Assembly (NCBI RefSeq): GCF_964204645.1
Contig: NC_134036.1
Span: forward strand, 434,001-498,000
Length of the DNA: 64,000 bases
Source of the DNA: Tubulanus polymorphus
Lineage: Eukaryota > Nemertea > Palaeonemertea > Tubulaniformes > Tubulanidae
Reading direction: 5' to 3'
The translations under genes and the position numbers were made by a program. Each line of letters starts with the position of its first letter. Position 1 is the stretch's first letter. The notes beneath the pieces are model-generated. The model saw only the letters and a list, made by a program, of their open reading frames with translations, made no database searches and was not told where the DNA came from. Shown here piece by piece: positions 1-63,910 of the stretch.

Positions 1-359
1 AGCTTATAGAGCACTGAGACTGGAGACTGTCGACACCATTTCTAGAACTGCATGAAGGAACTTGAGTCGACTCAATATCAACTCTGGCCAGTCAGCTTTT
101 CATCTTTTGATCTTAAAATAGGGATTGACCCTGTGATTTATTTGATTGGTAAATTTCGTTTGATTTTTTGATTTGGTGTCCCTTACAAACCCACCACACC
201 TGCCGGGAAAGAAACAGGGGGTTTGATTTTGAAATCGGAAATCGAAGTACAAATATAGTTGTGTGATCGGCGGTCGAGTTCACAGAATTTTTTGTTTAAA
301 TCGAAGTACATAATTTGAAATTTTCGGTTCCGGTTCATTCTAACAATCTTAGCCACTGG
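1..359. other. Non-coding DNA, intron of the KRAB-like gene
   Basis: No exon of the minus-strand KRAB-like gene can be seen here, although this stretch should be part of its second intron. An open minus-strand frame of about 64 codons runs from the minisatellite into this region, but it has no recognisable domain. A fair minus-strand acceptor (pyrimidine run ending in cag near position 200) is followed by a short frame with a stop, so no exon was called. Confidence 0.5.
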
Positions 360-1330
360 ACATAGGGCACAAGCCAACTCAATTAGTTTGTCTCAGTGAC
401 TGGACACAAGGCACAAGCCAGCTCAATTAGTTAGTCTCAGTGGCTGGACACAAGGCACAAGCCAGCTCAATTAGTTTGTCTCAGTGACTGGACACAGGAC
501 ACAAGCCAGCTCAATTAGTTTGTCTCAGTGACTGGACACAAGGCACAAGCCAGCTCAATTAGTTAGTCTCAGTGGCTGGACACAAGGCACAAGCCAGCTC
601 AATTAGTTTGTCTCAGTGACTGGACACAGGACACAAGCCAGCTCAATTAGTTTGTCTCAGTGACTGGAGACAGGGGCACAAGCCACCTCAATGAGTTTGT
701 CTCAGTGACTGGGCACAGGGCACAAGCCACATCAATTAGTTTGTCTCAGTGGCTGGACACAGGTCACAAGCCACCTCAATTAGTTTGTCTCAGTCACTGG
801 ACACAGGGGACAAGCTAGCTCAATTAGTTTGTCTCAGTGGCTGGACACAGGGCACAAGCCAGCTCAATTAGTTTGTCTCAGTGGCTGGACACAAGGCACA
901 AGCCACTTCAATGAGTTTGTCTCAGTGACTGGAGACAGGGGCACAAGCCTCCTCAATTATTTTGTCTCAGTGACTGGACACAGGGCACAAGCCACTTCAA
1001 TTAGTTTGTCTCAGTGACTGGACACAGGTCACAAGCCACCTCAATTAGTTTGTCTCAGTGACTGGACACAGGGGCACAAGCCACCTCAATTACTTTGTCT
1101 CAGTGACTGGGCACAGGGCACAAGCCACCTCAATTAGTTTGTCTCAGTGACTGGACATAAGGCACAAGCCACCTCAATGAGTTTGTCTCAGTGACTGGGC
1201 ACAGGGCACAAGCCACATCAATTAGTTTGTCTCAGTGGCTGGACACAGGTCACAAGCCACCTCAATTAGTTTGTCTCAGTGACTGGGCACAGGGCACAAG
1301 CCAGCTCAATTAGTTTGTCTCAGTAATCAT
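360..1330. repeat. 44-bp minisatellite, copy 1 (about 22 units)
   Basis: Tandem units of about 44 bp contain the phrases CTCAATTAGTTTGTCTCAGT, GGCTGGACACA and GGCACAAGCCA. Variants differ at a few positions (tgactgg/tggctgg, acaagg/acaggg/acagga). Near 400-660 three variants repeat in the same order twice, giving a ~132-bp higher-order unit. The array lies inside the intron that follows the KRAB-like exon. The same family forms a second array at 47700-48735. Confidence 0.97.
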
Positions 1331-1475
1331 GGGTTGAGCTTCACTGAAATAAGAACATTAGTCAGAACGACACAAGGACTATAGAGCCTGATGGATGCTT
1401 CAAGAACTGTGTGAACTGCACATCCCCTGCTATAGTGATAAAACATTGATGAGGAATTGTTTGCATTGTCGTTAC

Positions 1476-2120
1476 CTAAACATTTCAGCATTTCATAATT
1501 CCGACGAACGTTTCCCAAATGAAGTCTTTCGTACGCGCCGATTTTCTTCCATTCGGTTTCCGTGAAAAATTCCTCGATCGTCAAATTTTCCACTTCCTCT
1601 AACTTTGCTTTATCGACCCCTGGGAAACCGTCAATCGTCTCTCCCGAACCACTACCGGCGCTACTGATATCGGCGCGCTAAAAAATAATGAGAAAATATA
1701 CTTGTAAAGGGAGAAAAAGATTTACTTCTCACAAACACCAATGTTCCCAGGGTTGCACATATCCTTATGCAAATGTTATTGTTTTATCCAACTGCCTTTC
1801 TTGGGTTTCTTGCCTCGGCCCCCCCAGGGGTTGTTTTGCTCATTTTTTTGGGATGCAATTCTACTCGTTTCTATCATCTATTTTCAGGTTTTTCAATGTT
1901 TACTTTTCTAAGTACACAACGTACATTAATTTGGAAATATCGAGCAGTTCCAAAACGCTCAGAATCCATGAGAAAAGAGACCAATTTTTCTTGAAAACTT
2001 TTTGAGAAGGATCGACTTTTTTACTCCGTTTTTGACCCAATTAATCACAATAAATCACTCTTAATAACAATGAATATGAAACCTGAAACTAAAAATCAAT
2101 CTTACTTCCTCTGTAGACAT
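1476..2120 (-). CDS. PRDM9/SSX-type KRAB-domain protein, N-terminal exons (partial)
   Basis: Two coding exons are visible: exon 1 at 2106-2120 (five codons, MSTEE, then a GTAAG donor) and exon 2 at 1476-1677 (acceptor tttttag; donor TTAG/GTAACG; ends in phase 1). Together they give 72 residues plus one base. Residues 6-37 are low-complexity and acidic. Residues 38-72 form a KRAB-like box: FF at 42-43, EW at 47-48, G52, E55 and the stretch NVRRNYEMLKCL at 61-72. This resembles the KRAB-related domain of PRDM9 and SSX, where an EW pair is followed by a conserved NVKRNYxxL segment; the exon also ends where the mammalian KRAB-A exon ends. The family knowledge is that PRDM9 carries KRAB, SSXRD, PR/SET and zinc fingers and marks meiotic recombination sites. 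Which domains follow here is unknown, because the gene runs off the left edge. The KRAB call is good; the PRDM9 assignment is an inference. Confidence 0.65.
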
Positions 2121-3887: not shown

Positions 3888-6800
3888 TCATCGTTTATTG
3901 TTTAACTGTAGCCAATCGGAAATAGTTTTGAAGTTATTTTCCATCCATTTAACATTCGATGCCATCAAGGCCAAGGCATTGTTCGCTTCATTGCGGGCTT
4001 TGCCGTCTGGCGGTTGTTTTCGGAATAATTCTTCGACCTGAAATAAAGAATTTATTTCATTGAAAAATTCTAACCTGACTAACGGTTGCTGCTCATCAAA
4101 AGTATACATGAAACACCAATGTAACATTTCTATGTCGATGTATCCAATTTCTGGGTTCAGTTTTTCCAATTGGCTCCACGATGTACTAACCTGATTTTGT
4201 TCATATTTGGTGTTTAATTTTGAGGTACCGTGAGTAACCACGCTCCGCAACACAAAATTATCATTGCGGAATCTACAATTAAAATCATAATCAACAACTT
4301 GAATGAAATAGTAATCTTTTCAAATCTTCGCTCCGAAGATGCTTTGTATTCTTGGAGTGAATTCCAATTGATTCTTTTGATACCTTTCATTTAACTGTTT
4401 CCATTTCGTCAACATAAACATGTAAGCAACATTCTGCCCTAGGGGTGTTGATGACAGGTAACCAAACACCACTCTGATATCCTGTTGTCTTATCTTCTTA
4501 TTATCAAAACACCAATTCGCGTATCTAGACAAATTATCAAAGTTATGACGAATACAAATTTGACAAAATAATGGAATATTTTTGAAGATGCCTTTTACAG
4601 TCCTTGTTCCAAACGAATAGCTGGACTATAGATCTACATCAAGCTTACCTCCACAGTAACCACGGTTCTCTGGTATGCGCCAAAGCCATCATCATCGTTT
4701 CTCTTTCGGACGCTACGTTCGTCGATTGAGACTTATTCCATAGAAAATCCCATTCGTCTGAACTGCCCTGGCTGATACCGGTAGCGTATACTGTCAAAGC
4801 ATAGTCGGGTTCGACTCTGAAATTAAAATCCGACATAAATATCTCAACGACCAGAAGAACATGTTCATCATAGAAATCTGAAATCTGTTCGAAAGGAGCT
4901 ACTTACGGTTTCCCATTTTCCATCCAATCTTTGAAGGCTTTTTGTGCATATTGTACCGCCTCAGGTACTCCCAGACGGCAAGCAGAATCCAATAGAGTTA
5001 TCTTCAAATTTCTACACGAAATTAAAAAAATACTTCGATATAAGTTTCATTAGTCATCACAATGATTTATGAATAAACCTCGCAGAACATAAGAACATGT
5101 TTATGTTACCTTTCAGGGAGGTTCCCCTTAGGACGTCCGGTTCCAACACCCAACCTTCGGAACTGCGGAGCTACCAACCTTCTCATGAATTTCTGAAAAA
5201 AAACATTCATTTATTCATTACTAACAAAACCTCAATCTGAATTATTATTCAAGCATCTATCACCACGGTTCCCTGTACCTTAAATTCGCCATAGATTTCA
5301 CTGCGACAAACCATTCCTTCTATAAACGCTATCGAATTTATAAACGTCTTCCACGGGACGAAATCTTCCTCTTTGTCCAAATATGACGATATGTTCAACG
5401 CGATCTTATAGTCCAATTTACCAGCCCTGGAAAACAATGGTGAAAATAGGCATAGCCGTTTCTGACATTCGGCCCGCAGTTGCTGAAGTTGGTTAAAGAT
5501 AACCAGTGGATGAATACCATAGTAACAATGAACTTTTGATTGTCACTATATCAATTATCCACTGGTTAACTCTAACCAACTTTCCAGCAACTGCAGCCTC
5601 AGCTGGTTTAGAATTGAAGAGTATAATTTTACCTAGCCAGATTGAAGGCATCATTGATGAGACCTGCTCGATTTGCAGATGCAATCACCTAATATGAAAT
5701 ATAGATATTCATTACTTAGCGGATATAAAATGAAACATGTATGTCAGCAGTTTTTAACGCTGAAATTCATACCGTTCTATCACGTTGTAGCTGCTCAATA
5801 AGTTTCTGCCATAGTCCGACATCGTAATTCACTCGGTAGAATCCATTATGATCCCAGTTTCCTACTATCCACGCATTATCAGGCACATAGATTTCACCTA
5901 CAGAAACAAGATACCAGTTCAAGTTTGAATCCAACTCATACGCCAGTCTGGGGCTGCAGTCGCTCAAAGGTTGGTTAAAGATAACCCGTGTATATAGTAA
6001 CTATGAGCTTTTAACTGCCACTATGTCAACCTATCCACTGGTTATACTATGACCAACTTTTCACCAACTGCTGCAGCCTCTGTTGTGTAAAGCTCAGATG
6101 TGTCTTAGGTCAAACCTGAGGTCAAACGTAACCAATGTGTCCTCGGCGTTAGATTGTCTTGTGTTATATATTGAAAAGGAATGAACCATTTGTACCTATG
6201 TAAAAATAATCAATGCATGACTGACAACAACTTTTGGAAAAAGGAAACTATCAGTTGGTTTTATTTGATTGTCTACCAGTCGTTTTGCTTACCCATATGG
6301 ACTGTCAGTTGGATTATAAACCTGGTCAGGGTTCAATAAGAACCTCTCTTGTTCTAGTAGTATTCTGTCATTACCGAGACGTTTAATGGTAATAACCGGG
6401 AATCCCATCTGTCGCGTCCATGTGTCCATGATTTCACCAATATCATATTCCAGATTGGAAACCTATGTAAACAAAGTTGGAAGTGAATGTGACAAACAGG
6501 AAAGATTTTGTCGTCGTTAGTTTAATTAAGAATGTCTCATAAAACGTTGCCTTATTATTTACCTCTTCAAATGCGTGCCAAAGATCTATCATTTCAGCAT
6601 TACGATACATGTATCTATTTACATATTTCTGAAGGCCTCTTTTGAAGTTTTCCCAGCCGAGGAAGCCCCTCAGCATCCTCAAAGTTGCCAGACCCTATAT
6701 CGTTCAAGTATGTAACGGGAGATGTTATGTCTATACTAAAAATTGATAGGTTTATCAAAAAAGTGTTATTGATAGTGGTCACCTTATCGTAGGAGATAGA

Positions 6801-9800
6801 ATCGAAAAACTGCACAATATCATCGGGGTCCTCGATAGGGGCAGAGACCGGATGTGACGTAATCAGCGAGTCTTTCGTCATCACAGCGAATACACTGTCA
6901 ATCAACTGCAGATCGTGCTACAGAAACCAATAGAAACCGTAACAATGATCTTCTTAATGCATGGCATTAGACAAAAGCGGAACATGGATCATTGTCTTAC
7001 CACTTTCCATGACGGGTAGATATAGTCCATAGCGAAATACATTAGTGTACTGGCGAAACCTTCGTTTAACCAAAGGTCCTCCCACCATTTCATCGTAACC
7101 ATGTTCCCGAACCACTATATGAGAAACCAAAATATTGCTGTTTGTTCATTTTTATCTTTTTGTTTCAATTCATAATCAACTTGATTATCTTCCGTTTGTC
7201 TTAAACGTACTTACAGTATGCGCCACCTCGTGGGCAACTACTAAAGTGACGAAGTATTTATTCGACAATGCGGATCGTTCTGGGTCGAATAACAGGGCGG
7301 TCTGGCGGTAGATTATCAAACCCCAATTCTCCATCGCTCCAGCCGCGAAATCCGGAGAGGCGACCTGATCTAACATATAATGCAATCGATAGAACTAATA
7401 ATATATAACAATACTCGTCACGTTTACGACTGTCTGATTGGATATCGTCTAATGATTCAACCTCTCACCTGATTTAGGAACAGTGTCGTTCAATTGGAAA
7501 TAATCCGTAAAAAATTCGTAGCACTTTCTCGAAACGTTCAGAGCGTATCCAGTTTGATTGTAGGCTTCCGGTTGGGCCCAAATACGTATCTGCGAATAAC
7601 GAGACACTATTTTTAAGACCTTCTCTTGAATTCAAGTGCCTAGACCATCGTGTATCAGGTTTCTAACATTACAATGCCTGGGGAACCCCTACAAACTGCT
7701 GTTCTTCTGGCCAGGGACTCGGGGTGTGGCTACTATGAGCTGGTTCAACTATTTTTTTGTTTTTACGGTGGTGACCTTTTCAAACTCATGCATGGTTTGC
7801 CTGGGATACGTAATTTCCTGCTCATGTAACTTACTTTTGGTCCGATTCCACCGGAACCTTCGCGGAAAGTAAAATCCGAAATGACAAATGCAAGTAGATA
7901 TGAAGACATCCTGGGAGTATCGGCAAAATCCGCTTTTATCCAACCATCAGGGAGAGTTGTGTTTCTAATCGAAGGCATATTGGATAATGCCGTGTAACCT
8001 ATCATAGAAAAACAGCATAATCATCAATAATATCATTAGAATAATCATCAGCAGATTTTAGTGTGACTGTGTTAGAGTTTTGTTAGCTAACCCGGTTGGT
8101 GAATCAGTGATATTCCATAAATAGCTTTCATAGCCGGTTCATCGAAACATGGGAATACGCTACGAGCGTCGATGGCCTGCAACTGCGACGCGAGAAGGTA
8201 CCTGAAAAAAATCAGTTGAAAACTAAATTCCAGAATGAGCATTTGTACGGATTATGTGGTCTTTCATTGCTCTCTTGAGTCGTCATGAAAAATTTGTTCA
8301 TGTTGTGTGCTCATTGCTTTTCCGATGTGACAGTCGAATTAGTCTTTCTCGGAAGATCACCACTCCCCTCATTGGCCGAGAAGCCATCACGTCCAGGGTT
8401 GTCTCATCATACAGTCGGTTGTCTGCGTATACGCGCAGTGACAATTAGTCAAATTAATTCTGGTATCATTGTCAGGATTGTGTTGTCCTGAATCAAGGTA
8501 AACGTAACTTTTGTAAAAGGCAGTTTGTCATTCAGAGAGGCAGACAAGGACAGAGAGAAAGGCGGTCCTTGGTGATACGTGAATGTTCGATTTACCAAAC
8601 ACTTGAAACGACTTGTGATAAATAATGATTGATAAAGTAGAAATAGTAAAAGACAAATATCTTTTTGGACAGAGCGGGAGTGGTGCACTGTTGAAAATTT
8701 TGTTTGCTGTTTTGGACAAGAACCCAAGTGACTGCACAATATCCCCGTTCGCCAGTTCGCGCAAATGACTTGAAGACAGTATGAGAAGAGTCTCTGAGAG
8801 AGGCAGTAATTGAGTTTTGTCAATTTGCCGTTTATCAAGGTAATTTGCTGTGTAGAACAGCTCGCTTGTTTCCAGGCGCTGAAGTGCTGCTAATGAGTTT
8901 CGTTGACAACATCTCCCGGCGCCAACAATCGTGAAGGCTTTAGTTTGAAATTCGAACGTAACGACAAAACCAAGTATGCCGCGCACTACCTTATCGAAAC
9001 ATTTAGGGACTGCAATTTTTATTTGCACAAGAAAGTGTCCTACAAATTGAATAATTAATGAAATGATTTGGTTACTTTAGTTGAGAGTATTTACATAAAC
9101 TAGTGACTGTATGGGTTTGAATATAGATTTAATAGGCCTACCTGAAACTTCCATTTACTGGGAACCCGGGCTCTCTCTAAACTCATTAGTGGAAGCCCTT
9201 CAAGTGGTGGTTTAAGAGTATGATGCAAATATTTCATATTCAAATCACTCTCGGCGCATCGAGGCCAAAACATTTTGCTTCCAAAATTAATGATATAAGC
9301 TTACAGATTGAATGAATACTTATGCATTCCAAAAATCTTCAGTTTGAAGATGAACAACATACACAACATTCTTGGCAGGTCCCACTAAAGTGTCGCTTGA
9401 ATTGCTCTATCAAATATTGTTATATCTGTTGCAGTATTCGATGTTTGTCCTGAAAAGTTTAATGACAAATATCTCACACTTTCGTTTCTGTGTCATTTGC
9501 TTGTATTCGATCATAAGTACTGTTACATGCACGGTGTAGTGTGTCGGCAATGTGACAGTTTGACGGAGCACTACCTTTACTCCCACCTTCAAAGCATTTC
9601 AACTCAAATGGCATGATTTTTTTTTCAAAGTGACTTAGCTTCCGTTGTATCTTGGAGTACACCATTTGTTAATGCCGATGCGATCTGTTTTTCTGTGCAT
9701 GGACCCATCATGTTGCAAAAGAGGTAGGCCCAAAGGCACCTCATTTGCAACATGACCACAACAATCCTGGACAACAACTGAATATCCGATATCATTTCAG

Positions 9801-12356
9801 TTCTGTTGTAATTAGAAGGATTTGCAACGTTCAAGCTAAATCACACAATATATTGCCGAAATTCCTTGAATATGAACATTGTTGCCATGTCTGTCTAAAC
9901 ACTACCCTGATTTTGTTGTTTTGGCCCCAAAAGAAAAATATAAACTCCATTTCGTAGGCATGGTTACAATGTTCAAATTCAAGAAATTAAAATGGATCCT
10001 TTCCTAGTCTCTGATTCTACTTAATTGAAGGAGACTCTTTGTAAATCCTTCTAAGTGCAGAACTGGTATAATATTCAGCTATTTTCCGCGATTTTTGGCA
10101 TTCTGTTAAGAACTAAAATGAAACCCAAAAAGTAAGCAAAATAGAATAAAACAAGTCTCGTCCATTTGTAAGGGGCTATAGCTTCAACCGAATGAACTCT
10201 AAGACTCCGTTTCAACGTGGTTTGATTTTGCTACCTTTTCGCTGATAGCGTACTGAGCAATACAGACATTTCCCATACTTCAACCACGCGTAACCCGATA
10301 CTCAGAATAATAGCGTCAAGTGATGCGAGTTACACATCCGGCGTTGACTGAAGTGCCACGGTGATGATTCACAACTACCTCAATATTCTCTACTCATTCC
10401 CCGAGTTTGGCAGAAACTGGGGCGAATGGAACTTGTTCCGCTTGATGAGCACGTAATACAAAACAATATCGACATTGACGAGGATGGGATATAGAATTAA
10501 CAAAGTTAATGTTTTGCCCAGCGAAGAGAACGTGAACTGGCCCCTGGGATGCGAGTGCTCGTAACGGTTGGTTCCGGTAGCGCGCGTAGTGTAATTGAAT
10601 AAACTCTCCGTAGATTCTGCGCACGGGGTAATGATACATTTGTGATAGGCGGTCGACTTTCTATTGATCTTTAAATTACATTTCAAAATTCAAACATATC
10701 AATAACATCCCAGAATTATTAGGTTATCTCTGATCAATGGAAACCGTATCCCTGTATCTGGTATCAGCATTCTAACATAGAGGATCACCTGTACACTGTT
10801 GAATCTGTGGAATTCTGCCCCGAAGATTCTTTGGACAAGTTATGGCTGTGGATCATTGACTTAGGAGAGGTTTTCCCATGTACTGTCTTATATTGTCCAT
10901 CATTGACATTATCTCTTATTTCTTTACTTTCACTTCGTTTTGAAGCGTCCTTCCCAAAAGACAGTGGCAGTGACTTATCTGCCGGTCGTCCAAATACCAG
11001 TTCACAATAAAGGGCAGGACGCATGCATATAATGACACTTATGACATTGTTTCGCGGCTGTTGTCGGCATATTGAACCAGTTTTATATAATGTCTTTATT
11101 GAAAATTGAAAGGTCGTTAATCAAGAATAGATATTGATTGTGTAATTCAACCAATAGCGCTTCTAGAAAAGAAATTCTGATACTCTTCCAACGAAAAGGC
11201 ATCCTTCATGGTAAACTCAGAAAATTCTGGCTAGTACAATGGTACTTGAGGTACTTAGGTACTTAGGTACTTAGGTACAGGTCCGTAGCAGGCCATCTTT
11301 TATTTTAAGGTACCCACGCAAATGTTAGGTTCTGGGAATACTCGTACAGAATGCAAACAGAAGCAATTTCCAAATTTTCTAGAAACATTTGAGGTGAAAA
11401 TTTTGCTTCTTTTTCCTACAATTTTGCCTCAAATCAACTAAGTTTGGAAGCAAATTCTGAACGAAAAACAAACGAAAAAGTTTTACCAATTCTAGTGAAT
11501 CTTCTGAAATCGATGCACAAATTTTCCTAAGACTGGCATAAGAGGAGGAGGTGGCGGTTGGCTTCGTTCTAACCCAACCGAATCCCCCTTACTACGGGCA
11601 ACAATTCCGTCCACAGCGACTTGGACTCACTACACCTTACCTTTTCTGTCCAGTTTTTGTCCGATATGAACTCCTGTAGATCCCCTTTAGATCATCGGTC
11701 ACATTACCGGTAAAGTCGTTCAAAACAATTTCATATTGTTTTCCCTTTTCTAACGCGTCGCGCATACGTATCACGTAGAACTGACGCAGTTTCACCTCGA
11801 GTTGTTCAACGATCGGTAACTGGCGACTGTACCCGACACCGAGGGACTTCACGAACACGCGCGCTGGGTCTATCTTTAATTTCGTCACGTGTACTATAAC
11901 ATATTCCGTATCGGACATACATTCAACCCGTATTGCGACCTTTCCACGAAATTTAAAAGTCGTCAAATCCACTCGTAATTCGATTCTATAGTGGGACGGT
12001 ATGATATTGCCAGGTAAACGAATATTAGCCCAGGGTAGGCTGGGATCTATGGTCGGCTTGACCGGCGCGTATATCGTGATTCTATTTGCCGCGGCCGAAT
12101 CGTCTTTCGTTCCTGAAGGCGGACAGTTATTACGCCCGCCTAGAATACCACCTAATATAATTACAATAAGCACTAAAACGCATATTGTCAATGCAGTGAG
12201 TATAGTTTTCGTACGGGAGAAGTAACAGTAACCGGCGTGTCGCGGGTATCGCGACGTGTTATTATTTCCTATTATTCTCACGTCCCCGTCGATGGATTTG
12301 TGATCGGCGTTGATCGGACATTTCTCGGCCATATTAGAATCGCCCATCTTTTCCAT
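3888..12356 (-). CDS. Membrane-anchored M1 zinc aminopeptidase (aminopeptidase N type)
   Basis: Nineteen coding exons (minus strand, in order): 11641-12356, 8092-8201, 7835-7998, 7469-7589, 7215-7369, 7001-7114, 6783-6917, 6563-6694, 6293-6462, 6116-6195, 5773-5897, 5633-5688, 5279-5426, 5110-5192, 4907-5011, 4649-4816, 4384-4524, 4191-4272, 3888-4037. They sum to 2955 nt (984 residues) with every phase consistent. Residues 1-50 are cytosolic and 51-74 form a hydrophobic type II anchor. The N-terminal beta domain follows. The exopeptidase motif GAMEN is at 381-385, zinc motif HEVAH at 417-421, third zinc ligand E440 (HEXXH-18-E) and catalytic-type tyrosine Y503 (SYDKG). Then come the beta-sandwich and the helical ERAP1_C-like domain to the C terminus. 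Length matches mammalian ANPEP/ENPEP. The residue before the G of GAMEN is Ala, as in ANPEP, where ENPEP has Thr, so neutral N-terminal residues are the inferred substrates. The Gln that usually follows HEXXH is Thr422. The enzyme would trim peptides at the cell surface. The two nearest-neighbour ATGs (codons 1 and 4) are both possible starts. One-to-one orthology to a named vertebrate gene is not claimed. Confidence 0.95.
5471..5597. mobile_element. Foldback MITE-like element, family A copy 1
   Basis: About 127 bp with imperfect terminal inverted repeats: the left arm GCAGTTGCTGAAGTTGGTTA pairs with the right arm TAACCAACTTTCCAGCAACTGC (interrupted), and the inner arms ataaccagtggat/atccactggttaa also pair. 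It sits in the aminopeptidase intron between exons 12 and 13. No coding capacity. A second copy lies two introns upstream at 5951-6080. Confidence 0.8.
5951..6080. mobile_element. Foldback MITE-like element, family A copy 2
   Basis: About 130 bp. The left end GGGGCTGCAGTCGCTCAAAG and the right end CACCAACTGCTGCAGCCTC are imperfect inverted repeats, and the internal GTTGGTTAAAGATAAC is shared with copy 1. It lies in the aminopeptidase intron between exons 10 and 11. The two copies have diverged but keep the same foldback plan. Confidence 0.8.
8202..11640 (-). other. Intron 1 of the aminopeptidase gene (3.4 kb)
   Basis: This is the longest intron of the gene, bounded by the GTAAGG donor after 11641 and the acceptor before 8201. 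It holds several open frames with no recognised product. The minus-strand frame at 8528-9028 (166 codons) has no supporting domain. The minus-strand frame at 10390-10686 has a hydrophobic C-terminal stretch. A short (AGGTACTT)n repeat lies near 11241-11280. No tRNA or other RNA gene was recognised. Confidence 0.6.
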
Positions 12357-12384
12357 CGGAAATCTGCAGTTGTTTTCTTCGGTC
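12357..12384 (-). other. 5' UTR part of aminopeptidase exon 1, with splice acceptor
   Basis: A minus-strand acceptor (cttttttcag) ends at 12385, and 28 nt of leader precede the start codon at 12356. At least one non-coding exon must therefore lie upstream, at higher coordinates. Confidence 0.6.
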
Positions 12385-12798
12385 CTGAAAAAAGTGAAGG
12401 CACGAAATTAAAGGGTCGAATAAGAAATTGTCGTTTTGTATGGATGGTTAAGACACGCGTTGCGTTGCTGCATGCAATCGGTGTCGGTTTATTGTCGACA
12501 ATCATTAGTTTGATCCTTCGCATCCTGTTTTGGACGAAATAGTCCGTGAAATGGATCACGCTCATCCTTCTGATGTTAGATCGTATCGTCGCCATTGTGT
12601 GTGAAAGGTCAAAAAATAAAGACGCATTAACACGCAAAAAAAGAACATCTGCCAATTGACGAATCAGCTTTGCTTTTAGAGACGTAACGTAATCAATACA
12701 AAGAGAAAAGACAACTGTAAAAAAACAAGCGAATGAAACGTTTGCGATTGATTTGTTTTTCTCATGCCGTTTGATTTCACTAGATATGAAGGAGAGCT

Positions 12799-28202: not shown

Positions 28203-31200
28203 ATGCCAGTATTAAAAATGGACCCAGGAACGAGTATAAACTTTGACGGTCAGGCGATTCAGGAGCAGGACGAGGAGGACCTCCGTCGCGAGGAACAGGA
28301 ACAACAAAATGAGGTAACTGTCACCAGGGGGCGCTAGGCATACAGCTGCTAGGTTTTATAGGGTTTATGGTCATCAGGGGCCTCTATGTTTGGTGCGAAT
28401 AATTGTCACCAGGGGGCACTAGCCGAGTAGAAGTAACACTTTATAAACTGATTTCTGTTTTTGTTTCTAGTTGAAGCAATTGTTGGCGAACGCGTTCGAT
28501 GATTTAATAGATGATGATGATGATGACGACGATGATGATACAACATCTGTATCGTCACGGGAACTATCTCGTAACTCCTCCTACAGCGCTGTCAATCAAT
28601 CTCAGTAAGTTTCTAATCGACGTCATGATTTGTCATGAATTTAACAAGAATATATTCAATAATTGTTTGTTTTTGTTTATGCAGGTTTGATGATCACATG
28701 ACTCAATCTCAGAACTCTCAATCTCGATCTCCCCAACATCAGCAGCAACAGCAGCAGCAGCATCTGTCACCGCATTCTCATAACTATCCTAACAATGATC
28801 ACCCTGACGACCAGCAACAATGGAATCAACACGCCGCGTATACATCGCCGTACGGTCAACACGGAGAATATAACTACCAGATTCCACCACCAGAGGGAGC
28901 TTATCATTACCAGACTCATAACGGTTCTCCACACGGCCACATGGGGTCGCCACATGACCAACATTATTACAACCACCCGCAATACAACAATCCTCATTAC
29001 GGGGGTTATTACGCCAATGGTTACCACGGAGATGCGGGACAATACATGGACGATTATCAACATTTTCACCAGTATTCCGACCAACATCCGGATTACGCTA
29101 ATTCTCAGGATTATCCTCATCCGACAGTTGCTAATCCTCAGGATTATCATAATCCGCATCTATCTCCGGGTCAACAAAACGGATTATCGCCGCATTACGA
29201 TCGCTCGCCGCAGTTGTCACCTCGTCTCGCAGGGAATTCTCAGCAGATGTCGCCAACGTCGGTGAATAACGGACTCGACGGGTATAAAGTACGTTATAAG
29301 AAGGTCGTCGCGACGGAACAATCGTCCAATCAGAATACAGATTCAGAGTCACATGATCACGGTAATCGCTCTGAACCGGAAAATAAACAATTTCACGAAC
29401 AGAGTAAGTTGAAAACTTTTGAGAAATGAATCCCAAATTCAAGGGTTGCAGTTAATGAAAAGATATTGATGAATGTTGTTTTAATTTCAGCCGGTTCGCC
29501 AGATTCACGGCAACACGCGCAATTACAGATATTATATCGAGCTCGCGGACGTCAAATAGAAGAATTAACGCAAGAGATGAACGCGTTGAAGGAGGAAAGC
29601 GCTCGGGAACATCGGTTACTGAAACACAAACTCGCGCTCGCCGAGGGAGATAAAGAAGGTCTTACGTCCAGTCTGGAACAGGTTCAGAAAGTCATCTTAC
29701 AAACGCAGGAGGAAAGTTCGCACCTGAGAACTTCGCTGCAATCGTTGAACAATGAAATTGTGTCGCTTACGAAGGATAAAGAAGAGGTTTGTTTAACTCA
29801 AACAATCAAACAACTAGGACCCAGTTCCACAGTTCCAACAACTCTGAGTTAAAGTTCGTTCATTTTCAATGAGTTAACTCAGAGTCAAATCTTAACTCGG
29901 AACTGTGGAACTGGACCCTAGAAGTTTGAAAAACTGTGGTTGGAAATTAATATCCTGCTTTATTAAATGCATATGTTCACTTTTAAAAATGCCCTGATCT
30001 GAACAAGACCTGATATGGCTGCTTTGCAGCTATATTTATTAACATAAATGCTTTTCTCTGATTGTCGATGATGCAGAAGTTGCATAAACCTGATGTAGCT
30101 GCTTTGCTGCTATATTTATTATCATAAATGTTTTCACTGTAGTTGATGCAGAAGTTGCATAAACCTGATATGGCTGCTTTGCTGCTATATTTATTATCAT
30201 AAATGTTTTTCACTGTAGTTGATGCAGAAGTTGCATAAACCTGATATCGCTGCTTTGCTGCTATATTTATTATCGTAAATGTTTTTCTGTGTAGTTGATG
30301 CAGAAGTTGCAGACGGCTGAAACTACGATCGAATCGTTGAATAAACAATTACTGAGCGTCGGCACGAGCGACACGTTGTCGCGAACGAGATCTCAACACA
30401 ATACGATGTTAGCCACGCTGCAACAGAAATACGAAAAAGAACTTTATCACATGAAAGAGAAATTTGACGACGCGAACAAATCAGTCGAAGAAAAGGTTTG
30501 TTTTTCGAAAACCGACGACGAGTTTATTATCTATTCTATAGAAACCTCATCTTAATCTTTGTCTTATTTTCTGAAACGTAGAGAGAAGAAATTAAGAGTC
30601 TTCGTCAACAATTGGAAACGGTGATTAAATCGTCAGAGGGCGCTAGCGTCGAGCGGGCGGAAACGATGAACCGATTGACGAAGAGTCTCGAGGAAAGTCA
30701 AATGAAATGTCAACGACTGCTGGAAGCCGGTAAGTTTTTAAAGAAATAACTTAATGAAAATTTAGTGTAGCCAGTGAACTAATTTGCTGTGAATTATTTT
30801 CTGTATTTTAGGGGCGTGTGACGAACAGAATCAACTGCGGTTACAAATACAACAATTAAAAGCGTCTAAAGTTTTAACCGATGATCTCTGCGAGGATCTG
30901 CAATCGGAACTCACCGGTTTAAAAGAGCAGTTGAACATGTACGAATCGGCTTCCAGTTACCTCGGCAACACGTTCAACAATCCGTCGTCGTGCCAACCGT
31001 GCGGAGACGATTCGTTCATCGCGTTGAATATCAAAGGTACGAATAACAACAACGATAGCGCCACCTATAATCAAAACGCGTTGACGTCGATCGGACTGAA
31101 ATCTGAATTAGAACAATGTTTACGAAACTACAAGAATAAACAGGATCATGTGACGCGCGTGCAGACGGAGCTGAGATCGGTTAAACAGGAACTAGTCGAA

Positions 31201-34200
31201 ACCAGGAAGAAAATCACCGCCTCCGAGACCCTTATCGACGAATTCAAGGTATTGTTACAGTTACTATAGTAACCAGATTGACAATATCTCATCGAACGAA
31301 TTTATCATTTCTCATCGTTTTATTTTATTTTTAGTCTCAAATGAAAGCGTTACAAACTAAACTGACAACGTATGAATCGGGTAGTAACGCCCCCACGCAG
31401 CGAGAACTCGAACTACAACGAGATCTTGACGAGGTTATCGCAGAACGAGAGAAAGTGGAATCGGAGCTAGCTGACGTGCAGCGCCGCCTGGAGGAAGTAG
31501 CGAGCAACGAAGAGAAATTGAACGATATCAACGCGGAACTGGCGACGCAACTTTCACAAGTTTTCAAAGATTTTGATGTCAACAAACAACAAGAGGTTGA
31601 AAGGTAAGAAAAAAGGCTGATTTATGTTAAACTCAATGAAGTTTTGGCAGTAAATTGAAAGTTTTCGGATAATGTTTTGGTTGGTGTTTTTTAGTTATCA
31701 GAGAGTGATTCAGCAACATTACGAAGATGCTCGCGATCGCCTCCAGGAGGAGCTGATGACGAACTTTCAAAACGAGCGTGTTAAACTCATTCAGACGTTT
31801 GAAGGTCAACTTGAGGAAACAAAGTACGTTAACCTTAAGAATTCTTCGAGTATCATCATGAACTTTGAATCAGAAAAATTAGGGAAAACTTTGGCAATTA
31901 GACAAATTTTTATAAAAAATTTAGAAAACTTAGGGAGTTGGGACATGGAATTGACCGTGTGGTTCTTAATGATTGTGCAATTCATGAAAAATGAATTAAT
32001 TATTACATTTTAAACCCATGAAATTCACCATCACTTGCTGCAGATTTATTAGGGGAATTTTCCATGAACTCAGGGAATTTGTAAATGGGGGTAAAGTGTA
32101 TCAGTGTCGGGGTTTTCTCATGTTAATTCATTTTTATTTGTAGAAGAGAATTAGATATGAGAGTAAAAGAGTTGTGCGAAGTGAAAGAGATGTACATGTG
32201 CGTTTGTAAGGAGAAAGACGAAACTGAGGAAAGAGTTAAAACAGAATGTGAGGAAAACTACGAAAAACAACTGAAAGAGGTTCGTAAAAAATTCCGAGAA
32301 AATCCTCGCGTTTCGATTTTTAATTCACTAGAATCGTTTAAAAATAACGGTCGCGTTTGTTACAGATGAAAAATAAACTGCGTTCCGAACACGACGCGAA
32401 CGTCGATAATCTACGCAAATCGTTGGAAGAGAGCCAACAGGTTGCCATGGTTTCGCTGAAATCTCGCTGGCAGAAAGAGCAAGCGGAAGATACCAAGCGT
32501 AAAGTCGAGGCCGAGGTAGGGATTTGGAAATTTGAATATTTTGATTTGACTTCGAAAGCGATTGAGTAATAGTCGATTGGATTTAATACCGATGTATTCA
32601 TCTACCTAAAGGTGGCGTTGGCGAAGTCGTCTTGGTTCGACGAACACAAAGAAGACAAACAGAAAGCAGTTGAATCAGCGATGAAGAAAAAAGACAACGA
32701 ATGGCAGCTTCGAATGAGGACGGAATTCGAAGATAAACTTGATTCTCGTTTAGCAGAAGGTAACAAATTACACATTCAAACATTGACCTGAATGTAGTAA
32801 ATGATTAGATTTATAATTATGATAATAATATTGATAATTATGATAATAATTTGATTAATTTGTGAAGTGCCCCCTTGAGGTATAACCATGCTTGATAAAC
32901 TTGCCCGCCTGTTGTGTTCTCTAATGAAATGTGTATATTCTAAATTTGTTCCGTAGAAAAAGAACGATGGCTGACCGAGCAGCAGACGACTATCGAAGAG
33001 ACGGTTAAACGACAGACGGACGCCGAACGTGCGAAACTGGAGAAACGCTACGAAACGAACGTCGCCAATCTCGAGAAAGAATTCAAACAGAAAACGAACT
33101 CGACCGTCGAACAAGCCGTTCAAAAAGCGAAATCCGATTGGTTGAAATCTCGCGAAGAACAAAACAAAGCGTTCGAGGAACAGCGCGTGAGAACGAAGAA
33201 AGACGTCGAACTTGCCGTCGCCGAGGCCAAACAACAATGGCAGGTAACTAAGCAACAAGAGATCGATAATGCGGTGAAAGAAGCCAAGCGAACGGAAGGT
33301 GAGGATTTACGGAAGAAATACGAACAGAAGATAAATTCGTTGAACGAAGAGATTAGTAATTTAACGAAAACGAAACACGGTTTGGAACACGAGCTGAACG
33401 TTGCTAAACTGGCGTGGGGCGACGAGAAACGTACGCTCGTTACTTTAAAATCGATAGAATTATCCGCGCTGAAAGAGAGCAAGGAACGTCTCGAGAACGA
33501 CGTCGAATCGTTGACCGCTCAGTTGCGCGCGGAAAAAGAAAAAATGGCCGAATTGGCGCAACGTTTCGAACAGGAGAAATCGCTGGCGAATTTCGAAAAG
33601 GAAAACGCGGAGGTTTGCGGTCAGAAAGAGGTGGCGCTGCGTGCGCGTAGCGAACAAACGATTCGTCAGTTACAGACGGAACTTCACTCGATGCAGACGA
33701 AGATCTGCGAAGCGCAGACGGACGTCGAATCGGCGCGGGAACACGTTAAAATGGTCGACGACGAAAAGCGTAAAGTCGTCGCCGAGATCGAGATATTGAA
33801 ACAAGAACGACACGAGATGAACGCGAAGGTCGACGAAGAGAGGCAGAGGTTCAACAACGAGATTGAGAAACTGAGTCTCGAGCGCGATCGGCTGAAATCA
33901 GCGGCAGATGCGGCTACGAAAGGAAGCAAAGATCTCGAAGCGGAGAAAGAGAAATTAGAAACAGAAGTGAATAGAATTAATGAGAAATGGTTGAAAAAGG
34001 TAAATAAATACATTCCTCAGTTGTGAGCTAGAGTTTACTCAGAGTCAAACTCACAGCTAGAGAACTGGGTCCAGTTAGTCAAACTGTAAAACTAGCTATG
34101 AAAACTGTTCTATTTCAAATGTAATGGTTCCTCAGTTAGGAGTTAAAGTTTACTCAGAGTCAAACTCACAACTAGAGAACTGGGTCCAGTAAAACTAGCT

Positions 34201-37200
34201 ATTAAAACTTTTTTTTCAAATTTATTTATTTTCCTGTTGTTTTTCCGATTCAGTTTGAAGAGGTCACCAAAGAGAAGGACGTCGAGAAGAAGCGCGTGAT
34301 TGACGCTACTGTCGATGACCACCAGAGGGTGCTGAAACACCTGGTCGACGAACACAACGAAGCGTTGAAATCTGCGCGCGAGCAATATCAGAAAGAGAGA
34401 GTAAGTGAATCTCTTGAGTAGAAAATATTTCACAAAGTTCTTGCGATACTGGTATTTTATCAGAGTGGCACCCGCTGACCTGAAAAACTCAGGGAATCAG
34501 AAAAATCTAGAAATAATCAGTGAATTTTATTAATTTTACCAAAATCCTGGAAAACTCGTGGAATTCTGATAACGCCATTGACAATCGATATAAAATAAAT
34601 GAATGGTAGGATTTGAAACTTAGAAATTTCTCAGAATCACTAGAATTTTGTGTATTTACATCGAATACTCGCGGAATTGGTAAATGGGTGGAAAGTGGCG
34701 CCACCTTGTTTGTTGAGCAGGGTTTTATAGAATGATGATAATTATATCGGGGATATTTTTAAAATATTGGTTTTACAGGTAAAACTCATCGAACAGCACG
34801 AAGCTGAAATAACGCGAATGAGATCTGACAGTAACGCCCTCATGGAGAGTTTCATTAACAACAAGAACGAACGAATTCTACTGCGTAACCTCGAGGAACA
34901 GTACAACAATGTAAGCAGTTTGTATTTGAAAAATTGAAATTCTGATCAAAGGTTTTGTTCGTGTTATTTAGAGTTTGATCTGAACGCAAAAAGGTTTATT
35001 TTATCAATTGATTTTCATATTGAATTGATAACCTTTCGCTTTTTAATTAAATTCAATGTTGATAACGTTAAACCTTTTTCAGATTTTCAACTTATTTGTT
35101 TAGATATAATATTTTCACGATTAATACGAGGTATTTAATTTCGATTTTGTCCTACGTATTGCAGGAACGAGAGGAATCGATGAAACAATGGGAGGAAAAA
35201 CTGGAACACGAGAAAGAGAAATACGAATATCAGAAACAACAGATACAGAAATCATACGAACAACGAATACAGGACATCATACAGGATCGTGAGAACGTGA
35301 AGGACGCCCTCGCTGAGGCGAAACATGAGGTATGAAATATCAGATATATCAATATCATACTCTCGGAGATATCTGAGATTTCAATATCGATGCTTATTTC
35401 AACGTTTTTAACTTTTTTCAGATCGGTAAATTCAACGATTGGAAACGCGAAAAAGAAGAATTAGAACGAGAACTAGCTAATCGCGATCAGCTGCTTGGCA
35501 ACGCGGATCGCCACCTGGAGGCTGAAGTCGATAAACTACGACGCGATCTCGAACAGAAACACGAGGAACGCTTGAAAACTAAGATCGAATCCGTCTGCGC
35601 GAAATACGAGAAAGAATACGAACGTCGTATGAATATCATCAACAATGATCGCCGTCAACGGCAACAACAATTACAAAAAGCGGAACGCGATTTACGCGAA
35701 TTCGAAGAGAAACACGACGTGTCGGTGAAGATGTACGAGGAACAGGTGAAGGTCGCGCGGAGCGAGGGAGCCGCCCGCGTCGAACAGGTTAAACTACATT
35801 TAGAAACGGAGTATAACGATATGATCGAAAGTTGCGAAAGCGAAAAGAACGATTTCGAGAATAAGTTGAAATTGTGTCAGGATCAGTTGTGTCGTCTGAG
35901 CGCCGAACGAGATCATCTAGTATCGGAACATCAGACGTGCGGAGATCAGCTGAATGAATTAATGCAACAACTATCACAATCTGAGGTAAGAGTAACAACA
36001 GCTATAAGCTGGCAGCTTCAAGCTGTACAGAATGGTAGTAGCTGACAGTTTGGGGATACATCCATAGCCATTTACCTCGAAAACTCAAAATCAGGGAATT
36101 TGACAAATTTTACCTGTCAAAACCTGGAAATCTCTGGGAATTCAGATATTGCTATTGACCGTGTGTTTCTAATCTTTATCATTCCTTGATTCAATGAAAT
36201 GTCATGGAAAAATCAGGGAAAACTTTGTAAATGGACGGAAATTGGCCACCTTGATAGCTAACAAGTTAGGGTGGTAGCTAACAAGCTAAACTGGAGGGTT
36301 GTAGTTATTCAGGAGGGTTAGTTAGCTGCTAAGCTGGTAGCTTTATTTTCAGTAAAATAACCAGAGTTTCTGTTTGATGGTGATTTTTTTAGGAGCGAAT
36401 GATGAATTTGAAACAATCACATGACGTCGACGCGGAGGCGATGAAACGTAAAATGGCGGAGATTCGCGAGAAACACGCGGTCGCGATCGAGGCGATGAGG
36501 GAACAACACGAGACCGAACTCAAACGAGCGAGCCCTGTACCAGCAGCAGCGTCGTCACAGCAACACACCGATGACGACGAGCACGTGGAGAAATGTTTCG
36601 GCGAAGAACTGAAACAGAAATATTTGGCGACGGTTGCAAATATCAGAGGTTCGTTTCATTTAAACTTTATTACAATTTAGTTTATACTCTCCGGGCTGAT
36701 TTCAGGGAATTTGAATGTTTGGTGTCTTGTTGTTCTTGCTGGTGACGAGTGACACAAGGAACCTCTTAATAAGAAACAGCCCTCACTGAGGATAGCTTGA
36801 AATTTAATCGGGGAGTTTGAATTGTTTGGTGTCTTGTTGTTCTTGCTGGTGACGAGTGACACAAGGAACCTCTTAATAAGAAACAGCCCTCACTGAGGAT
36901 AGCTTGAAATTTAATCGGGGAGTTTGAATTGTTTGTGTCTTGTTGTTCTTGCTGGTGATGAGTGACACAAGGAACCTCTTGATAAGAAGCAGCCCTCACT
37001 GAGGATATCTTATAATTTAATCAGAGAATTTTTGGTGTCTTGTTCTTGCTGGTGATGAATGATAATAAACAGCCCTCACTAAGAGGATATCTCGACCCTG
37101 TTACTGGTTACCGTCGTTAGAGAGTTAAATGTTGTTTTCTATTGTTGCAGCTGAAGTTGTGTCTCACGTCGCGTCGACCAATCGTAAATGTAGTCAAATA

Positions 37201-37795
37201 ATCCGCGAGAATCTAGAAAACGAGCGTCACTCGGCAACACGGGACGTTAAACAATCGTTTATTAGAATCTACACCGATATATTAAACGAGTTATGCACCG
37301 ACAGGTAGGTTTTATCATAACCGCCGTTTTGGAATTCAAATTCAAAAATAACTGCCAACATTGTTTAATCGAATTGTTCGATTGTTTTCAGATCGACACG
37401 CGAGAAATATCTGGTCGCCATGGAGAAAGCGATCGAATTAGAACTCGTTAAAACTAATCCGTCTCGGAGTTCGACTCCGGATCCTTCTAATCCGGTTACC
37501 CCGAAGACTCCGGCCGCGTTTAAAATGTCGACTATCGTCGTCGATAGCGTTGCTATGAAACCTGCGAGCTGCTCGGTCGCCTTACCCGACGCGACAGAAA
37601 ATTCAGCGAAGAAAATGATTAAGAATTTGAACCGGCCTTCGTCGCCGTCTGCTGGTAATACGAACTGTCCGCCATCTGCCGGGAATTCATCGTTCGGAGA
37701 AGAGTTAACTCAGTATCCGCTGCCTCCTCATTCCGATAAACCGACCAAACAGAGCGGTCAGTATCCGGTGAGGAACTTCTCACCGACCAAGAAAA

Positions 37796-37844
<49 letters not shown>

Positions 37845-38538
37845 TCCGTCATCGGCTCCACAGTTAAAATTCATCGAACTGCCGATCAGTCCTGATCAGA
37901 GTCAGGTGGATTTCAGCCACGAGTTATCATCGACCGCTGGTCGTCCGTCGAGCGACGCGAGTTTTTCGGGAATTTCCGACATAATCTCGGCTCATATCGC
38001 GGTCGACACGACGACGGCATTCCCGACCGTCGGGGAATCCCCCGTTCCGCAACAACGAATACAGAATCGTTCATTACCGACGGCGACGACCGCGATTCAT
38101 CGAACGCCGTCGTGCGCTAGTTACCCGAATACTCCCCAGGTGGCGTCGGCGCCATCTACGACGTATAAATACACGTCGTTACGTAATAATTCTAATCGCT
38201 ATGGTAACGAATCTAAAACCGCTTCCAGTACGCCGAACAGTTCGCGTTACGATAATTCAAATATTTCCTACATGTTCGAAAACGGATTGAGTCGGATTTA
38301 CAGCGGCATCGGCGGAAATGAGGCCGGACTGGCAAGACTGCCGGCTCAACCTCGTCCGTATAACCCTCCTCCGCAGAGACTCAGTTCACTCGAGAACGAC
38401 TCGACCGAGAACTGGCTTCCACCGGCGCGTAAATCAACGTCGTCGAAAAAACACGCGAAATCCAACGATTCGAACAAACGACAAAACGGAGCGAAAATTA
38501 TTCGAAATAACGGCGACTCGGGAACCAATCGGTCGTGA
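28203..38538 (+). CDS. CEP152: CEP152/Asterless centrosomal scaffold protein
   Basis: Twenty coding exons: 28203-28313, 28471-28604, 28685-29403, 29491-29786, 30295-30495, 30582-30729, 30812-31248, 31335-31603, 31695-31823, 32144-32279, 32366-32515, 32612-32759, 32957-33999, 34254-34400, 34779-34910, 35165-35329, 35422-35985, 36393-36648, 37151-37304, 37392-38538. The sum is 6486 nt (2161 residues), with all phases consistent. Residues 1-70 contain an acidic segment and the LKQLLANAFDDL stretch, matching the N-terminal region that binds the PLK4 polo-box in vertebrate CEP152. Residues ~82-320 (exon 3) are Q/H/Y/N/P-rich. From ~325 to ~1780 the protein is almost continuous coiled coil. Recognisable landmarks are SLEQVQKV-type heptads in exon 4, LNMYESASSYLG in exon 7 (human LYESAAKLG) and QVFKDFDVNKQQEVER in exon 8. 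The C terminus (~1780-2161) is Ser/Pro-rich with 15 consecutive Gln. CEP152 recruits PLK4 and SAS-4/CPAP to start centriole duplication. It is longer than human CEP152 (~1700), mainly from exon 3 and the tail. Exon 5 has two in-frame acceptors 9 nt apart (30295 or 30304). Confidence 0.95.
28321..28422 (+). promoter_or_regulatory. Pair of CTCF-like motifs in CEP152 intron 1
   Basis: TCACCAGGGGGCGCTAG at 28321-28337 and TCACCAGGGGGCACTAG at 28406-28422 lie in the same orientation 85 bp apart, with a weaker third match (tcatcaggggcctc) between them. The phrase is close to the bilaterian CTCF core CCACNAGGGGGCGC. Binding is an inference; the phrase may also simply be part of a small tandem repeat. 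Confidence 0.4.
29814..29921. mobile_element. Foldback MITE-like element, family B copy 2
   Basis: 108 bp in CEP152 intron 4. The ends CTAGGACCCAGTTCCACAG and CTGTGGAACTGGACCCTAG are nearly perfect inverted repeats, and the inner ACTCTGAGTTAA and TTAACTCAGAGT also pair. It is the best-preserved copy of the family, so it gives the clearest view of the termini. Confidence 0.9.
29995..30303 (+). repeat. 76-bp tandem repeat that includes the exon 5 splice acceptor
   Basis: Four units, with the gatgcagaag phrase at 75-76-bp spacing (cag ends at 30076, 30151, 30227 and 30303). Each unit contains gctgctttgcwgctatatttatta, a T-rich tract, an AG and then TTGATGCAGAAGTTGCA, which is the true acceptor plus the first codons of exon 5. 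The duplicated unit therefore spans the intron/exon boundary. The three upstream acceptors are followed by a diverged sequence with an in-frame stop. Confidence 0.9.
31838..32105. repeat. Dispersed repeat family E, copy 1 (CEP152 intron 9)
   Basis: Recognised by tttgaatcagaaaaattagg, aactcagggaatttgtaaatg and gggggtaaagtg in the same order as the copies in introns 14 and 17. Non-coding and diverged. Confidence 0.6.
34006..34195. repeat. Two tandem blocks related to foldback family B (CEP152 intron 13)
   Basis: Two blocks of about 120 bp share TTCCTCAGTT, AGTTTACTCAGAGTCAAACT and AGAACTGGGTCCAGT. The ends (ctcagtt, aactgggtcc) resemble the termini of family B at 24260 and 29814. Confidence 0.75.
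34465..34708. repeat. Dispersed repeat family E, copy 2 (CEP152 intron 14)
   Basis: Starts gtggcacccgctgacctg and ends gtggaaagtggcgccacctt; the ends are weak inverted repeats (GTGGCNCC). The interior contains several aaaactcagggaat-type phrases. Non-coding, MITE-like. Confidence 0.65.
36065..36252. repeat. Dispersed repeat family E, copy 3 (CEP152 intron 17)
   Basis: Contains aaaatcagggaatttgac, attgaccgtgtg and tgtaaatggacggaaattgg followed by ccaccttg, in the same order as copies 1 and 2. Confidence 0.65.
36712..37085. repeat. 107-bp tandem repeat, about 3.5 units (CEP152 intron 18)
   Basis: The phrases GTGTCTTGTTGTTCTTGCTG, GTGACACAAGGAACCTCTT and AACAGCCCTCACTGAGGATA repeat at about 106-107-bp intervals, with the last unit truncated and diverged. 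Intronic, non-coding. Confidence 0.95.
37798..37842 (+). repeat. CEP152: (CAG)15 coding for polyglutamine in CEP152
   Basis: Fifteen uninterrupted CAG codons in the last CEP152 exon encode Gln15, flanked by Lys-Lys-Asn and Arg-Pro-Ser. A pure CAG run is likely to vary in length between alleles. A shorter mixed polyQ (7 Gln) is in exon 3 near 28740-28760. Confidence 0.97.

Positions 38539-54820: not shown

Positions 54821-63910
<9,090 letters not shown>

Follow-up and report, generated by a model that had tools for sequence, protein, structure and literature searches.

A predicted PRDM9 orthologue with an ancestral-type KRAB box and a short, quiet finger array in a probable invertebrate genome

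In mammals, PRDM9 chooses the sites of recombination, and hotspot placing by PRDM9 is also found in salmonids. The gene has been described as ancestral to all animals and as full-length in many metazoans, and its exon layout is given as two exons for KRAB, one for SSXRD, three for SET and one for the fingers (PMC11703093). Outside vertebrates, PRDM9 has been reported in a sea anemone (Nematostella), Lottia, Capitella and further animals; in sea urchin and a gastropod, its transcripts are reported from the germ line (PMC2779102). Ancestral KRAB (aKRAB) domains occur across Bilateria, including mussels (Mytilus) and insects; they are one residue short of modern KRAB-A and have a pair of basic residues where it has MLE (PMC8835667, where the motif, with PxxFM and a later W in KRAB-B, is defined). 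The complete PRDM9 described below extends the known list of PRDM9 outside vertebrates and is of a published kind, and the novelty that a preliminary description of this locus saw in KRAB and PRDM9 outside vertebrates does not hold, as both invertebrate PRDM9 and aKRAB are in the literature (PMC8835667, PMC2779102).

The window, meaning the whole 64,000-nucleotide stretch of DNA analysed, is C12:434001-498000 in a 267.8-Mb assembly of 77 contigs. This genome size, set against those of vertebrates, suggests a non-vertebrate animal. A search of the assembly for mitochondrial COX1 had no match, while 8 of 14 control genomes did match. A PR-domain search of the whole genome had 17 matches, of which two lie immediately past the left edge of the window, in the adjoining segment L009 (C12:424001-434000), and on the same strand as the KRAB exons. 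Open frames and splice sites were joined into exons by eye, with PRDM9 as the guide, and the resulting gene model has 10 exons and runs from C12:436120 to 431370 on the minus strand. Its nine introns are all GT-AG with consistent phases, and the predicted open reading frame of 1845 nt encodes 614 residues with a single stop, at the end. Its parts are as follows.

Window 2106-2120, minus strand: coding exon 1 (MSTEE), start codon 2120-2118, donor GTAAGA, phase 0 end
Window 1476-1677, minus strand: coding exon 2, ancestral-type KRAB-A, 202 nt, acceptor TTTTAG, donor GTAACG, phase 1 end
Window 1-1475, minus strand: part of intron 2, which extends to C12:433856, 145 bases past the window edge
C12:433694-433855, minus strand: exon 3, KRAB-B (KPDFM, and DKEW with a downstream W)
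C12:433575-433618, minus strand: exon 4
C12:433390-433501, minus strand: exon 5, SSXRD-like stretch (weak)
C12:433237-433313, minus strand: exon 6, zinc knuckle
C12:432956-433156, 432449-432614 and 432107-432310, minus strand: exons 7-9, PR/SET
C12:431370-432031, minus strand: exon 10, C2H2 fingers and stop codon

This ten-exon layout supports assignment to PRDM9, since it fits the one described in PMC11703093. Intron 2 also contains a minisatellite (window 355-1324) with a 44-bp unit in 22 copies at 91% match.

The two-exon minus-strand start with a KRAB-like box (2120-2106 and 1677-1476), proposed in the preliminary description, is confirmed by its splice sites and by the shuffle test given here, and exon 2 does end in phase 1. 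Exon 1 reads ATG TCT ACA GAG GAA, its ATG being the only one in the open frame of that exon, and the 72 residues of exons 1 and 2 contain the KRAB-like stretch TIEEFFTETEWKKIGAYERLHLGNVRRNYEMLKCL. Local alignment of these residues with the human PRDM9 KRAB is ungapped, with 13 of 31 positions identical and a score of 74 that none of 5000 shuffles reached (mean 23.2, sd 4.3, maximum 50); the score was 60 against SSX2 (shuffles as good, 0/5000) and 42 against ZNF10, a modern KRAB (5/5000), all three reference sequences being approximate. With exon 3 added, the scores were 124 for PRDM9, the highest, 92 for SSX2 and 73 for ZNF10, each with 0/5000 shuffles, and KRAB A+B together are identical to the reference human PRDM9 in 25 of 69 columns, which no shuffle in 5000 equalled. 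The KRAB-A of exon 2 has RR where modern KRAB has MLE and is one residue shorter, matching aKRAB.

The Pfam KRAB model (PF01352) gave a different answer: exon 2 has no match at a maximum E of 10, in a search in which most matches above about 0.1 were dropped, so that the lack of a significant KRAB-profile score, named in the preliminary description as grounds for refutation, holds for Pfam. As controls, the reference human PRDM9 KRAB scored 1.9e-8 and SSX2 3.2e-4, the latter clearing the cut-off by 0.3 bits. The Pfam KRAB model is weak for ancestral-type KRAB. It could be supposed that the N terminus is unrelated to KRAB and resembles it by chance, given that Pfam KRAB is silent and that exon 2 has a weak match to DUF1413, but the failure of all 5000 shuffles, the location of the exon where PRDM9 has KRAB and the presence of KRAB-B next to it make this extremely improbable. 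The DUF1413 match itself is sub-threshold (E 0.0075, 16.9 bits, cut-off 25) and is taken as chance. Exon 2 has neither the MLE motif nor the Pfam KRAB score of the TRIM28-recruiting modern KRAB zinc-finger class. A search of exon 2 alone against the PDB returned only a DNA ligase (E 1.7), and AlphaFold on exon 2 alone, with no alignment, was uninformative (pLDDT 55.3, pTM 0.29). Among viral contigs, 44 stretches fitted a pattern and none was confirmed; phages gave a single match, at E 8.

The nearest PR/SET exon lies 2.3 kb off and is joined to exon 2 by the splice model alone, and so exon 2 might instead be part of a separate KRAB gene, SSX-like or of the KRAB zinc-finger type, that sits by accident beside a PRDM gene. 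This is very improbable: the strand is shared, splice phases match throughout, the frame of exon 2 continued past its donor meets a stop within about 150 nt, and exon 3 carries the KRAB-B motif on in register with the reference human PRDM9. Across the genome, KRAB A+B gave four matches, namely the two exons of this gene and two weak candidates on C3 (E 0.019) and C7 (E 1.82). Realigned to the KRAB exons, the C3 candidate matched over just 25 residues (E 0.33) and was rejected. The C7 candidate aligned with gaps over 63 residues at 31% identity, partly over an acidic run, and was likewise rejected, though more tentatively; its E of 3.6e-6 refers to a single locus of 3.2 kb and was obtained with neither masking nor composition correction. 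PF01352 had no match across the genome, and as no control matched either, this says little.

The remainder of the predicted protein matches a PR domain model in Pfam (PRDM2_PR, 1.8e-45) and zf-C2H2 in six stretches. All fingers are in exon 10, with an isolated C2H2 finger at residue 400 followed by six in tandem. When the knuckle, PR/SET and isolated finger were compared with the PDB by phmmer, PRDM9 chains came first (171.2, 171.0 and 167.1 bits), followed by PRDM11 (117.7), PRDM14 (90.2) and the other 10 of the 15 chains, a ranking among PRDMs that covers solved structures. The catalytic tyrosines, whose role in PRDM9 is addressed in PMC5519329, are all kept: human Y276, Y341 and Y357 correspond to Y250, Y318 and Y334, and by a spacing check the Y276 equivalent sits in FGPYEG.

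Of the domains sought downstream following the preliminary description, PR/SET and C2H2 fingers were thus found, but the SSXRD-like stretch is weak. The predicted protein has no match to Pfam SSXRD, a model that the human control barely clears (3.8e-5, 23.7 bits, cut-off 23), and in pairwise comparison the stretch scores 48 against the reference human PRDM9, with 3/5000 shuffles as good, and is equalled by 135/5000 against SSX2. The downstream exons clearly do not encode an unrelated protein; they encode the PRDM9 domain set, and the earlier view that exons 1 and 2 are the N terminus of a PRDM9 orthologue is supported by KRAB-B, the zinc knuckle, PR/SET and the single-exon C2H2 array. Judged from its sequence, orthology to PRDM9 is very probable, and we hold with the same high confidence that the gene is intact and is the only PRDM9 found in the genome.

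The mouse PRDM9 PR/SET matches the genome at 10 places, and exons of this gene account for two of them (58.1 + 45.1 bits). Three other single exons slightly exceed either of these (64.2, 63.7 and 59.0 bits); they belong to other PRDM genes, since their best PDB matches are PRDM14, PRDM14 and PRDM1, respectively. When bits are summed across exons, the PRDM9 gene is the top match to mouse PRDM9 PR/SET. With those three included, the six other PR exons compared with the PDB are these.

C2, about 4.998 Mb: PRDM14-like PR exon
C5, about 9.214 Mb: PRDM14-like PR exon
C1:10010405: PRDM1-like PR exon
C6:8327753: PRDM10-like PR exon
C1:6952587: PR exon nearest PRDM4/PRDM10 (PRDM4 40.8, PRDM10 40.4, PRDM9 31.1 bits)
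About C1:6450260: ambiguous PR exon (PRDM4 46.9, PRDM10 46.5, PRDM11 45.5, mouse PRDM9 45.2 bits)

No second PRDM9 was found in this check, which covered six of the eight other PR matches (all except C1:29750122 and C4:19781965); those six best fit other PRDMs, one of them marginally. The occurrence of two separate PRDM14-like PR exons, on C2 and C5, suggests a duplicated PRDM14.

Several other features were observed around the gene.

Window, about 3888-12407, minus strand (that of PRDM9): M1 aminopeptidase gene upstream of PRDM9, with Peptidase_M1_N (2.8e-15) in 11637-12407
Window 3888-4319: open frame, by eye the end of the M1 aminopeptidase gene, with no Pfam match
L009 1-6131, plus strand, outside the window: open frames for Guanylate-kinase and ZU5, in tail-to-tail arrangement with PRDM9
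Window 28629-38538, plus strand: several long open reading frames, low-complexity and coiled-coil-like, with Q runs
Window 62156-63505: 60-bp tandem repeat, 22.5 copies, 94%, with a long open frame in one reading

The Guanylate-kinase and ZU5 frames presumably belong to a gene resembling ZO-1/TJP. The four pieces scanned from the frames at 28629-38538 have no Pfam match. The 60-bp repeat has four Pfam matches, all below their cut-offs, and is probably a satellite.

The reading that we prefer, at a probability of about 0.6, is that this PRDM9 has a role in meiotic recombination. In such a model, the fingers would bind a DNA motif, PR/SET would methylate K4 and K36 of adjacent H3 in meiotic cells, and KRAB/SSXRD would tether the bound site to the break machinery, while a ZCWPW-like reader, the product of another locus in the genome, would recognise the K4/K36 double mark. 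A candidate for the reader exists. Profile searches of the genome gave six zf-CW and 11 PWWP matches, one pair of which lies 0.5 kb apart on the same strand of C10; joined, the pair scores 3e-13 for zf-CW and 3.1e-13 for PWWP. Its zf-CW best matches ZCWPW2 in the PDB (47.8 bits, with ZCWPW1 at 36.0), and its PWWP matches NSD2 (37.3 bits) and MSH6 (35.7 bits); the 44 matches include no PWWP chain from a ZCWPW protein. By this similarity, the C10 gene is ZCWPW-like and a probable partner of PRDM9; in vertebrates, ZCWPW1 and ZCWPW2 are described as gained and lost along with PRDM9 (PMC8892340).

The finger array is less suggestive of the mammalian situation. An exact repeat of 79 nt, in 84-nt register, is common to fingers 2 and 3 and points to recent duplication or conversion of fingers. 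In the five full 84-nt units (10 pairs, the sixth finger being omitted as its last spacing differs), pairs are identical at 41-57 of 84 nt, with 68 of 84 for fingers 2 and 3. The share of amino-acid diversity at positions -1, 3 and 6 is 0.18, against 0.14 if diversity were even, over 21 core positions in six fingers with the sixth cut at 21. The trait of fast-evolving arrays, near-identical repeats with diversity focused at -1, 3 and 6, which is linked to recombination function, is not seen here apart from that one repeat, and the array shows no sign of a mammal-type contact-site race, as read from six fingers in one assembly, in which long arrays can collapse. Since fast-evolving fingers are common but not universal in PRDM9 (PMC2779102), the quiet array lowers the claim on function, not that on orthology.

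It may be, then, that the gene, although orthologous to PRDM9 by descent, serves as an ordinary chromatin regulator of the germ line or embryo, its targets being fixed, rather than as a placer of recombination, a real possibility though not the reading that we favour. Many fishes have a KRAB-less PRDM9 that such a gene would resemble, except that KRAB is kept here. The array consists of just six tandem fingers plus one, with most pairs diverged in DNA and diversity not focused at -1, 3 and 6; the co-occurrence of fast-evolving fingers with complete PRDM9 is almost perfect in vertebrates (PMC8892340), and Mulinia prdm9 is reported to be high in the blastula (PMC10451705). On the other side, KRAB and the three catalytic tyrosines are kept, in contrast to the tyrosine changes in the KRAB-less beta copies of fishes (PMC5519329, PMC11703093), a ZCWPW-like gene is present in the genome, the exact repeat indicates recent change among the fingers, and the oyster male gonad is described as high in both Prdm9 and Zcwpw2 (PMC12111275).

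KRAB, the catalytic residues and the ZCWPW-like partner favour the meiotic role; the quiet array counts against a hotspot race like that of mammals. The relevance to PRDM9-directed recombination raised in the preliminary description is plausible, with caution because of the finger array. A bolder reading, which we think unlikely, would take the gene as a PRDM9 that is complete, KRAB and every catalytic tyrosine included, that has a ZCWPW-like partner in the genome and whose short array is not focused on contact-site change. If true, this would break the vertebrate rule that links racing fingers to a complete PRDM9. It would also point to an ancestral PRDM9 complex that marked stable meiotic chromatin sites before the Red Queen race.

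Compared with known systems, the gene shares with mammalian PRDM9 (Meisetz) KRAB-A/B, the place of SSXRD, occupied here by the SSXRD-like stretch, the zinc knuckle, PR/SET with three catalytic tyrosines, an isolated finger after PR/SET and an array in one last exon. Unlike mammalian PRDM9, it has six tandem fingers that are mostly diverged in DNA, a weak SSXRD-like stretch and a KRAB below Pfam detection. PRDM11 has a zinc knuckle and PR/SET of similar type, at a score below that of PRDM9, and is not known to have KRAB or a finger array. Teleost PRDM9-beta is similar in its PR/SET and conserved finger array, but it is described as lacking KRAB and SSXRD and as having changed catalytic tyrosines (PMC11703093), whereas the gene here keeps KRAB and the tyrosines. 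The PRDM9 genes of Lottia, Capitella, Nematostella, sea urchin, Crassostrea and Mulinia, and the aKRAB of Mytilus, are like this gene in occurring outside vertebrates. Lottia and Capitella are reported to have 23 and 11 aligned fingers, respectively, with concerted evolution (PMC2779102); by comparison with that description, the present gene has six fingers and little concerted evolution. Recent theory holds that PRDM9-guided hotspots were gained in the vertebrate ancestor or earlier (PMC13320716). A probable invertebrate that has both a complete PRDM9 and a ZCWPW-like reader provides a test case for whether the hotspot function dates back to the origin of the gene, and the combination of a probable partner gene with a quiet DNA-reading region makes this gene useful for asking what the first role of PRDM9 was.
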